Assembly (NCBI GenBank): GCA_029248405.1
Contig: JAQWJJ010000007.1
Location: 1-64,000 of the forward strand
Direction: 5' to 3'
DNA from: Flavobacteriaceae bacterium
Lineage (GTDB): Bacteria; Bacteroidota; Bacteroidia; Flavobacteriales; Flavobacteriaceae
Length of the DNA stretch: 64,000 bases
The translations under genes and the position numbers were made by a program. Below the pieces are notes generated by a model. It saw nothing but the letters and a program-made list of their open reading frames with translations, was not told the DNA's origin and did not search any database. Positions 14,007 to 18,371 of this stretch are shown here, in pieces (the stretch's first letter is position 1; every line of letters begins with the position of its first letter).

Positions 14007-14115
14007 TATTTATGACCCCATAAAGGTACACATATTAGGGACATGATGGTGGGCAAGACGCTATAGCTTCGGAGACAAAATTGTTGAAAAAATTCAGCCC
14101 ACATGAATTTATTTA

Positions 14116-14149
14116 TTGGAAATATTCCATAATTTTGGATATATTCCAA
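14116..14149. promoter_or_regulatory. Two tandem operator-like palindromes ahead of dnaE-dinB
   Basis: Two copies of the 15-base motif TTGGA-wATAT-TCCAw: TTGGAAATATTCCAT at 14116-14130 and TTGGATATATTCCAA at 14135-14149. Each has inverted arms TGGA/TCCA around a five-base AT core, and centres are 19 bases apart, close to two helical turns. The second copy ends three bases before the DnaE ATG, so a bound repressor would cover the start region. This fits a damage-regulated operator, but the regulator is not in the window. Confidence 0.65.
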
Positions 14150-14152
14150 TAT

Positions 14153-17100
14153 ATGTATTTGAACACCCATTCTTACTACAGTCTGCGCTATGGCGTACTC
14201 GCTCCTCGAGCCCTTTTGGAGGAGCTCTCTCAGAGGGGCGTCAAGCAATGGGCTTTTACCGACATCAACAATACTTCTGCGGCATTAGAAATTTGTAAAA
14301 TGGCACCTGACTTTGGTGCTCAAATTGCCATTGGCGTAGACTTCCGCAATGGTGCCCAGCAGCAGTTTGTGGCTTTGGCACAATCGCCTATAGGCATGGC
14401 ACAGATCAACAAGTACCTCTCCGAGCACCTGCACCAACACAGAGCTTTTTCTGATCAGGCACCCGAATTTTCGGATGTCGCGGTCATCTATCCTTTTGCC
14501 CGCAATGGCAACAGGGCTTTTGACTTGCGCCCCAACGAGTATATTGGCATCAGCCCTAGTGACCTTGGGCGATTTTGCTATCAATACGGCACAAGCATCC
14601 CCAGGCACTTTGTTGCCCTACAGACCATGAGTTTTCGCCACAAACAAGATTTCAATACCCATCGGCTGCTCAGGGCCATTGACAACAATAGCTTGCTCAG
14701 CAAATTACCCAAAAGTGAAGAAGCCAATCCACAAGACCTGATCTGCGATCAGGAAACGCTTTTCAATACCTATCGTGATGCGCCGCAATTGGTCAATAAC
14801 GCCCGCAGCTTACTAGAGCGTTGCTTCTATGAGCACGAGCAAAATCCTCGCCAACCCAAAAACCAAAATAGCTATACTGGCAATACGGGTTTGGACCAGC
14901 GCTTGCTCAAAAAACTCGCCCAACAAGGTTTGCCGCATCGCTACCCTAGCCCTATAAAACCCGAGGTGCTCCAGCGACTAGACAAAGAACTCGATCTGAT
15001 CATACAAAAAGGGTTTGTCGCTTATTTTCTGATCAATTGGAAAATTGTGCGCTACGCACAAAGTAAAGGTTATTTTTATGTAGGGCGCGGCAGTGGCGCC
15101 AACAGCTTGGTGGCTTATCTACTGCGCATTACTGATGTAGACCCTATCGAACTCGATTTGTATTTTGAGCGGTTCATCAATCTGTACCGCACCAATCCGC
15201 CCGATTTTGATTTGGATTTTTCGTGGACCGACCGCGACGATGTGACTGATTTTATTTTCAAACGCTTCAAGCATACTGCACTCATTGCGGTATACAACAC
15301 CTTCAAGCACAGAGCAGCCGTTCGCGAATTGGGCAAGGTTTTTGGCCTGCCCAAAATAGAAATTGATCGCCTAGCCAAAGGACGTTACCAGTATGAAGCA
15401 CTCGATCATATGGCACAATATGTGGTGCGCTACAGCAAGCGCCTGATCGGTCTGCCTAATTATCTAGGCATCCACGCCGGCGGGATTTTGATTGCCCAAG
15501 AGCCTATCCACCACTATACCGCTACTTTTTTGCCGCCAAAGGGCTATCCTACCACTCATTTTGACATGATCGTGGCCGAAGACATTGGCCTGTATAAGTT
15601 TGATATTTTGAGCCAGCGCGGACTCGGCAAAATAAAAGATGCTGTGGCCCTAGTGGCACAAAATCACCCAGGCCACCCACGCATAGACATCCATGACATC
15701 AAGCGCTTTAAGTCCGATCCAAAAATAAAAGACCTACTGCGCCACGCCAAGGCCATAGGCTGTTTTTATGTAGAGTCTCCAGCCATGCGCATGCTGCTGC
15801 GCAAGCTTCGTGTAGACCATTATCTAGGGCTTGTGGCGGCCAGTTCGATCATTCGTCCTGGTGTGGCACAATCGGGCATGATGCGTGAGTATATTCTGCG
15901 TTATCGCGATCCGCAACGCCGCAAATTGGCCCACCCTACGATGATGGCGCTAATGCCAGAAACCTACGGGGTAATGGTTTATCAAGAAGACGTCATTAAG
16001 GTGGCTCATTATTTTGGCGGATTGAGTTTGGGCGAAGCAGACATGTTGCGGCGAGGCATGTCTGGTAAGTTGCGTTCTAAAAAAGAGTTTGCCAAGGTCA
16101 AAAATTTATTTTTTGAGCGTTGTGCACAGGCCCAAAAACCGATAGAACTCATACAAGAAGTTTGGCGACAAATAGAGAGTTTTGCTGGCTATGCGTTTGC
16201 CAAAGGCCATTCTGCTTCTTATGCTGTAGAAAGTTATCAAAGTCTTTTCCTTAAGGCTTATTACCCAATCGAGTATATGGTGGCGACAGTCAACAACGGC
16301 GGCGGGTTCTATCATATAGAGTTTTATCTGCACGAAGCGCGCATGCACGGGGCTAACATTGTCGCCCCATGCATCAACAACAGCCATGCCCAAACCCGGG
16401 TCAAAGGCACTACGGTTTATTTGGGGTTTGGCTTGCTTTATGCCCTAGAACACAGCCTCATCAAGCAGATTGTTGCTCAGCGGCAAATCAATGGAGCCTT
16501 TGAAGATCTAGACGATTTTATCGAGCGGGTCCCTATCGCCATAGAATCGATAGCGCTACTGATCAAAATCGATGCCTTCCGCTATACCCAAAAACCCAAA
16601 CGAGCACTTTTGTGGGAAGCCCACAGCAAGCTCAAAAAAAACCCAAGACCTTCTTTACAGCAGCGGATTTTCCATACCAAAGCCAAAAACTACACACTGC
16701 CCTCGCTCAGTAATAGTCCTTTAGAAGACGCCTTTGACCAAATAGAACTGTTGGGGTTTGCGCTTTGTCTCCCCTTTGCGCTGCTGTGCGAAGCACCCAA
16801 AAACAGTTTGACCGCCACACAACTGGTTGGTCTCAAAGGACAACAGGTCACCATATATGGTTACCTGGTCACCACCAAATACACCAAGACCAACAAAGGA
16901 ACCCTGATGTATTTTGGGACTTTTCTAGACCAAAAAGGTGCATTTGTTGATACTGTACACTTTCCTCCTGTAGCCAAAAAATACCCTTTTAGAGGCAAGG
17001 GCATATATGCCATTAGCGGCAAAGTGGTTGATGAATTCGATTGCATCACTATAGAAGTCACTCATCTAGAAATACAACCCATCATTGAAGACCCACGCTA

Positions 17101-17155
17101 TGCTCAGGGGCAAGTGAGCGCGAGACTTCAAAGCAAACACTACCGCAATGTCTGA
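14153..17155 (+). CDS. Short DNA polymerase III alpha-like polymerase (DnaE2/ImuC-type, presumed error-prone)
   Basis: A C-family DNA polymerase of 1000 residues, shorter than replicative DnaE. The ATG at 14153 is chosen because HSYYSLRYG just after it is the canonical start of the PHP domain and the upstream codons overlap the palindromes. The PHP domain is degenerate: the HxH motif reads NTH and the TDH motif reads TDI. Polymerase catalytic aspartates are present (PDFDLDF, Asp351 and Asp353; KFDIL, Asp484). A helix-hairpin-helix part and a C-terminal OB fold (VTIYGYLVTTKYT) follow. It overlaps dinB by 8 bases. DnaE2-type enzymes work in damage-induced translesion synthesis, and the pairing with dinB supports that over a replicative role. 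Confidence 0.85.
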   Translation: MYLNTHSYYSLRYGVLAPRALLEELSQRGVKQWAFTDINNTSAALEICKMAPDFGAQIAIGVDFRNGAQQQFVALAQSPIGMAQINKYLSEHLHQHRAFSDQAPEFSDVAVIYPFARNGNRAFDLRPNEYIGISPSDLGRFCYQYGTSIPRHFVALQTMSFRHKQDFNTHRLLRAIDNNSLLSKLPKSEEANPQDLICDQETLFNTYRDAPQLVNNARSLLERCFYEHEQNPRQPKNQNSYTGNTGLDQRLLKKLAQQGLPHRYPSPIKPEVLQRLDKELDLIIQKGFVAYFLINWKIVRYAQSKGYFYVGRGSGANSLVAYLLRITDVDPIELDLYFERFINLYRTNPPDFDLDFSWTDRDDVTDFIFKRFKHTALIAVYNTFKHRAAVRELGKVFGLPKIEIDRLAKGRYQYEALDHMAQYVVRYSKRLIGLPNYLGIHAGGILIAQEPIHHYTATFLPPKGYPTTHFDMIVAEDIGLYKFDILSQRGLGKIKDAVALVAQNHPGHPRIDIHDIKRFKSDPKIKDLLRHAKAIGCFYVESPAMRMLLRKLRVDHYLGLVAASSIIRPGVAQSGMMREYILRYRDPQRRKLAHPTMMALMPETYGVMVYQEDVIKVAHYFGGLSLGEADMLRRGMSGKLRSKKEFAKVKNLFFERCAQAQKPIELIQEVWRQIESFAGYAFAKGHSASYAVESYQSLFLKAYYPIEYMVATVNNGGGFYHIEFYLHEARMHGANIVAPCINNSHAQTRVKGTTVYLGFGLLYALEHSLIKQIVAQRQINGAFEDLDDFIERVPIAIESIALLIKIDAFRYTQKPKRALLWEAHSKLKKNPRPSLQQRIFHTKAKNYTLPSLSNSPLEDAFDQIELLGFALCLPFALLCEAPKNSLTATQLVGLKGQQVTIYGYLVTTKYTKTNKGTLMYFGTFLDQKGAFVDTVHFPPVAKKYPFRGKGIYAISGKVVDEFDCITIEVTHLEIQPIIEDPRYAQGQVSARLQSKHYRNV

Positions 17156-18371
17156 CCACACCCCACGCAACATTCTTCACATGGACCTGGATACTTTTTT
17201 TGTGTCTTGTGAACGACTTTTAGACGATAAGCTCAAAGCCAAACCTGTGTTGGTCGGCGGCACCTCAGATCGCGGCGTAGTGGCGGCTTGCAGTTACGAA
17301 GCCCGACAGTTTGGGGTCCACTCAGCCATGCCGATGCGTTTGGCCAAACAATTGTGTCCAGAGGCTATTGTGGTTCGGGGCAATTCGGCTACCTACACCA
17401 AATTTTCGCGCACCGTCACCGAAATCATCCAACAAGAAGTTCCTATTTTTGAAAAGAGCTCTATCGATGAGTTTTATATCGATTTGACCGGAATGGATCG
17501 TTTTTTTGGCAGCCAAAAATTAGCAGGCGCATTGCGGCAAAAAATCATAAAAGAGACTGGACTGCCTATTTCTTTTGGGCTTTCCGCCAACAAGACCGTT
17601 TCTAAAATTGCTACCGGACAGGCCAAACCCAACAACGAAATATCAGTCATACAAGGACAAGAGAAGCCTTTTTTGGCACCGCTGTCTGTAGGCAAAATAC
17701 CAATGGTCGGCAAAGTGACTTACAAACAACTCTGTGATTTGGGCATCAAGCAGATCAAGACCCTTCAAGAAATGCCTGTAGAATTTTTGATCAAAGTATT
17801 TGGCAAAAACGGACAACACATCTGGCAAAAAGCCAATGGAATAGACCACAGTCCTGTAGTGCCCCATACCGAGCGACAATCAATCTCTACTGAGCGTACT
17901 TTTGGCAAAGACACCACCGATCACAACAAGCTCAGAAGTCTGGTCATTGCCATGGCCGAGAACCTTGCTTTTCAATTGCGTCGAGGACACAAACTCACCG
18001 GCTGTGTCGCCATTAAGATTCGCTACTCTGATTTTCAGACCTATACCCTACAGCACAAAATCACTTACAGTGCCGCAGACCACAGCATCATTCCTGTGGT
18101 ATTGCAGCTCTACGAAAAACTCTACCAACGCCGGATGCTGGTGCGGCTTATTGGCATCAGATTTAGCGACTTGGTCTCCGGAGGACACCAAATAGACCTC
18201 TTTGATGATGCCGAAAAAACCATCAAACTTTACCAAGCGATGGATTTGATGCGAGAGCGGTATGGTGATCGATCGATCATGAGAGCCGTATCAATGGAAG
18301 CCAAAACCATTGGCCGATATAATCCATTCGATGGTGAGCCGCCGCCTTTATTGGCCAACCGACATCAATAA
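17148..18371 (+). CDS. dinB: DNA polymerase IV (Y-family translesion polymerase)
   Basis: A 407-residue Y-family polymerase that copies past damaged bases. Catalytic residues are intact: Asp13 in MDLDTFF and the SIDEF motif (Asp107, Glu108). This speaks for an active polymerase rather than an ImuB-like inactive partner. The little-finger domain follows (RQSISTERTFGKDT). A C-terminal QIDLFDD may be a beta-clamp binding peptide. The ATG lies inside the last codons of the dnaE-like gene, so both are made from one message under the palindromes at 14116-14149. Confidence 0.93.
   Translation: MSDHTPRNILHMDLDTFFVSCERLLDDKLKAKPVLVGGTSDRGVVAACSYEARQFGVHSAMPMRLAKQLCPEAIVVRGNSATYTKFSRTVTEIIQQEVPIFEKSSIDEFYIDLTGMDRFFGSQKLAGALRQKIIKETGLPISFGLSANKTVSKIATGQAKPNNEISVIQGQEKPFLAPLSVGKIPMVGKVTYKQLCDLGIKQIKTLQEMPVEFLIKVFGKNGQHIWQKANGIDHSPVVPHTERQSISTERTFGKDTTDHNKLRSLVIAMAENLAFQLRRGHKLTGCVAIKIRYSDFQTYTLQHKITYSAADHSIIPVVLQLYEKLYQRRMLVRLIGIRFSDLVSGGHQIDLFDDAEKTIKLYQAMDLMRERYGDRSIMRAVSMEAKTIGRYNPFDGEPPPLLANRHQ

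Follow-up and report, generated by a model that had tools for sequence, protein, structure and literature searches.

Two near-identical palindromes upstream of a dnaE-dinB operon in the window, the whole 64,000-nucleotide stretch of Flavobacteriaceae DNA analyzed here, very probably constitute a tandem GGA-N5-TCC SOS operator, to which a noncanonical LexA repressor of the S24 family, encoded on contig C5 of the same genome, would bind to control the two polymerase genes. The window's two polymerases would then answer to a defined switch that responds to DNA damage. On the motif evidence, the regulon appears to have shrunk until only the repressor and mutagenic polymerases were left, in keeping with published work that sees the conserved core of SOS control in the error-prone polymerases.

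The probable tandem operator and the polymerase operon

The two operators, TTGGA-AATAT-TCCAT and TTGGA-TATAT-TCCAA, lie 19 bp apart, both start to start and center to center, and only the three bases TAT stand between the end of the second and the ATG of the dnaE-like gene (Table 1). The repeat pair, its spacing, and the three-base gap to the start codon had been given in a preliminary description of this DNA and are exact in both sequence and coordinates, and the Pfam domains of both downstream genes agree with the dnaE2-like/dinB pair that it named. The DnaE2-like protein has PHP, alpha NTPase, finger, and HHH domains, the DinB translation has intact DLDTFF and SSIDEFYID motifs, and the end of dnaE is overlapped for 8 bp by dinB. 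The presumed housekeeping alpha subunit (1,461 aa) is encoded separately, at G000:C3. Pairs of DnaE2 and an active Y polymerase without ImuA or ImuB-C have already been described in Bacteroidetes (PMC6511836). Compared to the PolY2 and DnaE2 pair of the Cellulophaga algicola type (Timinskas and Venclovas 2019, PMC6511836), the order in the window is dnaE and then dinB; the reverse order, dinB-dnaE, is found in many loci of the family.

Table 1. Features of the dnaE-dinB promoter and operon in the window
Feature	Position	Strand	Basis
Operator 1 (predicted), TTGGAAATATTCCAT, GGA-N5-TCC dyad	14116..14130	+	Sequence, genome-wide motif search
Predicted sigma-A -7 box TAATTTTG, between operators	14130..14137	+	Sequence; consensus TAnnTTTG (PMC9723704)
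Operator 2 (predicted), TTGGATATATTCCAA	14135..14149	+	Sequence, genome-wide motif search
Predicted transcription start, inside operator 2; 11-nt leader	14142	+	Inferred from -7 box placement (PMC9723704)
Second DNA polymerase III alpha subunit, DnaE2-like, 1000 aa, first operon gene	14153..17155	+	Pfam PF07733, PF17657, PF14579, PHP
dinB-family Y polymerase, 407 aa, second operon gene	17148..18371	+	Pfam PF00817, PF11799

The flavobacterial sigma-A -7 box has the consensus TAnnTTTG and is located at -12 to -5 (PMC9723704), and the box between the operators is an exact match to it. Its placement at -12 to -5 predicts the transcription start listed in Table 1, from which the operators would span about -26 to +8. 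No clear -33 element was found when the promoter was inspected by eye. Just upstream of the operators, at 14090-14110, is an inverted repeat, AAATTCA-GCCCACA-TGAATTT, which is identical in the same-genus genome G153 and is not so in G152.

The S24 repressor and its apparent regulon

We searched the 1.92-Mb assembly of the window genome, which is 92% complete, so that about 8% may be missing. The strict motif TTGGAWWWWWTCCWW occurs at four distinct sites, versus one for the reversed-pattern control, and all four are in two promoters only, two sites at dnaE-dinB and two at an S24 repressor gene on contig C5 (G000:C5:33590-34360). This gene, which is unlinked to dnaE-dinB, encodes the only S24 peptidase family protein detected in the assembly, with a CI-type HTH domain (PF01381), an S24 domain (PF00717), and all of the cleavage features, the Ala104-Gly105 bond, Ser144, and Lys183. 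Its promoter contains the tandem TTGGATTATTTCCTA, at -56 and -34 from the ATG, and a copy of TAATTTTG is again present between the two operators. An exact -7 box, TATATTTG, ends 4 bases before the repressor ATG (L016:5579-5593), which suggests a leaderless repressor mRNA; several relatives have similar spacing. A small XRE regulator is encoded at L016:3951-4280.

The relaxed motif added three single sites, in the metG region, at the yajC start codon, and in a probable coding region, and these were rejected as targets since they are within or overlap reading frames. No site was present in the 3.8 kb around recA, and a splB-like ortholog was not detected in the window's genus in a search that had no positive control. 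The genome-wide search that the preliminary description had proposed, with S24 repressor genes and recA among the places to look, thus found the motif at the former and not at the latter. Because strict sites are confined to the S24 gene and dnaE, the apparent regulon in this 92% complete assembly consists of the repressor and dnaE-dinB, and with recA lacking a site it looks minimal, which would be unusually small if the repressor is the full SOS regulator. No match to the repressor was found among PDB sequences, and viral collections contained only distant S24 relatives, at 30-33% identity or, for an Elizabethkingia phage, 27%, so that there is no sign of a recent origin from phage.

Extrapolating from the homologous published system (see below), the C5 repressor would bind the tandem operator of dnaE-dinB and also repress its own gene through its own tandem pair. 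Bound cooperatively next to each other, two dimers would mask the -7 box and the predicted start and so keep dnaE-dinB off. Once DNA is damaged, the repressor would be driven by RecA filaments to cut itself at Ala104-Gly105, using the Ser144/Lys183 dyad, which would free both operators and lead to induction of the DnaE2-like and DinB translesion pair.

Known SOS boxes, conservation, and alternative readings

The operator class itself has been published. Sanchez-Osuna et al. 2021 (PMC8565304) report GGA-N5-TCC as the SOS box of the noncanonical, S24/CI-like LexA of Flavobacteriaceae, with EMSA that included arm mutants and with mitomycin C induction in relatives of the window genome. Operons of DinB and a Pol III alpha subunit are the principal targets predicted there, a promoter often has two or more sites, and Flavobacteriaceae regulons are reported as large, at 8.90 +/- 3.27 operons. 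Compared to the published regulon, the window genome is alike in having the dyad with a rigid N5 spacer at both sites, multiple sites per promoter, an error-prone polymerase target (dnaE-dinB), an S24 repressor gene bearing the motif in its own promoter, and a repressor with the S24 cleavage residues (Ala-Gly, Ser-Lys) and a CI-type HTH. It differs in that the strict motif is at two promoters only, recA and splB are not targets (the latter by the splB search without a positive control), the repressor gene is unlinked, and the operon order is dnaE-dinB. The wide SOS regulon (splB-like, recA, and others), which is common in the class and not required for it, was not found in the window genome. 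It is by motif and domain features that the repressor is putatively assigned to the characterized Salegentibacter-type class (WP_075324850.1).

The window sites would share SOS-operator function with the canonical LexA boxes of E. coli (CTGT-N8-ACAG) and Bacillus (GAAC-N4-GTTC) but differ from them in sequence, spacer, and repressor DNA-binding domain. A canonical LexA SOS box was rejected, as neither sequence is present and the only S24 protein found carries PF01381 and not PF01726. The preliminary description had already noted this unlikeness, and both the sequence and the repressor domain bear it out. The novelty that it implied for the motif is unsupported, since GGA-N5-TCC is already documented (PMC8565304). 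Its reading of the repeats as a cooperative-looking operator, through which a repressor would hold dnaE-dinB under SOS control, gains support from the occurrence of the motif at the only S24 gene detected, from its conservation, and from its match to the published box.

The promoter block at 14076-14151 is about 97% identical to that of G153, with few differences, compared to 76% for alignable DNA overall, and operator 1 is identical there. Loci with a GGA-N5-TCC tandem at the dnaE-dinB promoter are referred to here as G-type. The tandem and the -7 box are at the same position in 10 dnaE-dinB loci, including those of Aequorivita lipolytica, Halomarinibacterium sedimenti, and an Ulvibacter MAG, and the box lies between the operators in 10/10 G-type loci, one of which has TAGTTTTG. 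We then searched 399 Flavobacteriaceae genomes blind for the composite of tandem operator and -7 box, using the reversed pattern as a control. The composite was found in 24 of the 399, with one match each, and the control in none. In 21 of the 24 it precedes a known SOS gene: dnaE (11), dinB of dinB-dnaE operons (3), a splB-like radical SAM gene (5), or, in each case after a short ORF, an SRAP peptidase gene (1) or another dinB-family gene (1). Lack of conservation in relatives and absence from other repair promoters had been named beforehand as observations that would count against an operator. The tandem proved to be conserved, including at the 10 dnaE-dinB loci; as for other repair promoters, recA of the window genome is without a site, and in relatives the composite stands before other SOS genes.

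In the remaining three composite matches (L255, L268, and L273), the gene behind is one conserved small gene of about 86-91 aa, a candidate for an uncharacterized SOS gene. The small protein, of 86-100 aa when a viral locus is counted with these three, has the pattern RNYD..IR.LLKEIG..RY..AL... and no significant Pfam match. The composite also precedes a likely relative of this small protein on a viral contig (L276, 12668-12699, minus strand). Among relatives, the repressor promoters of the G class have between two and four operators, mostly at distances of 18-23 bp, which is consistent with dimers side by side. In relatives with the G-class repressor (L161-L163), the splB-like radical SAM gene has a similar tandem operator. 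That no splB-like gene was found in the window's genus, in the search without a positive control, would fit a contraction of the regulon.

A repeat that arose by chance or as an AT-rich structural palindrome, with no regulatory role, can be considered negligibly probable. The intergenic region is 146 bp long and 67% AT, and single TTGGA-N5-TCCAA matches with at most one mismatch are at chance level (4 in the window versus 3.87 expected), so a lone palindrome is unremarkable. The tandem pair is remarkable, however: pairs of WWGGA-N5-TCCWW 15-25 bp apart were obtained in 0 of 400 dinucleotide shuffles of the window and in 0 of 20,000 shuffles of the intergenic region, and the composite, for which the control was zero in 399 genomes, nearly always precedes SOS genes.

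It is very unlikely that the operator serves an unrelated XRE- or phage-type regulator rather than a damage-responsive S24 repressor. Such palindromes are generic, and the genome has other XRE regulators, such as the small one noted above, but the strict motif is found elsewhere in the genome only at the S24 gene, the published repressor of the S24 class binds exactly GGA-N5-TCC (PMC8565304), and across genomes the operator class tracks the S24 class, as detailed below. Highly improbable, too, is an S24 protein that activates, rather than represses, through the tandem sites. The authors of PMC8565304 leave activation open absent non-cleavable mutants, but the sites reach into the predicted -7 box and start, where a bound protein would block.

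Operator and repressor types among relatives

Most relatives have a different tandem operator at the dnaE-dinB promoter, termed C-type, with the dyad CTAC-N5-GTAG. C-type operators were found at 33 other dnaE-dinB loci, in Winogradskyella, Gelidibacter, Hyunsoonleella, Yeosuana, Lacinutrix, and others; they lie upstream of dnaE (L023-L050 and L173-L249), pair CTACAAATATAAG with CTAC-N5-GTAG at a spacing of 22 bp, and have a TAAnTTTG-like box after them. The S24 repressor gene of these loci is usually upstream and divergent, with the tandem operator common to both genes, and its product is about 24-32% identical to that of the window genome and has a different recognition helix. A G repressor, 69-72% identical to the window genome's S24 protein and unlinked to dnaE, was present in 4/4 G-type versus 1/19 C-type genomes, the one exception being G118, which has both repressors. 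Operator type therefore co-varies with repressor type (Fisher p = 5.6e-4, for the genomes checked for both traits and uncorrected for shared ancestry).

We lean toward the view that, at this one mutasome promoter, evolution has exchanged operator pair and repressor, the alternatives being two S24 repressors whose recognition helices differ, one encoded in trans and paired with TTGGA-N5-TCCAA and the other encoded divergently and paired with CTAC-N5-GTAG, while the -7 box TAAnTTTG was kept; G118 would be a possible intermediate. The dnaE tree, in which deep branches are weak, gives three G/C changes by parsimony and is compatible with one switch of operator type as well as with several. What is new is the use, in close relatives, of a different repressor and binding site at the same promoter. 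The swap, if true, would allow the replacement of an SOS regulator to be tested directly, and paired replacement of operator and repressor at one promoter offers a tractable system for how such regulators get replaced.

The exact string CTAC-N5-GTAG had no match in a literature search and is not among the motifs in the sections of PMC8565304 consulted for comparison; it is apparently an unnamed Flavobacteriaceae variant of the SOS operator. That paper reports the related operators CTAA-N5-TTAG, in other Bacteroidetes, and TTAC-N5-GTAA, in Elizabethkingia. The C-type operator is like both in its four-letter dyad, N5 spacer, and S24 family but differs from them in its letters, and could belong to their class as one more variant.
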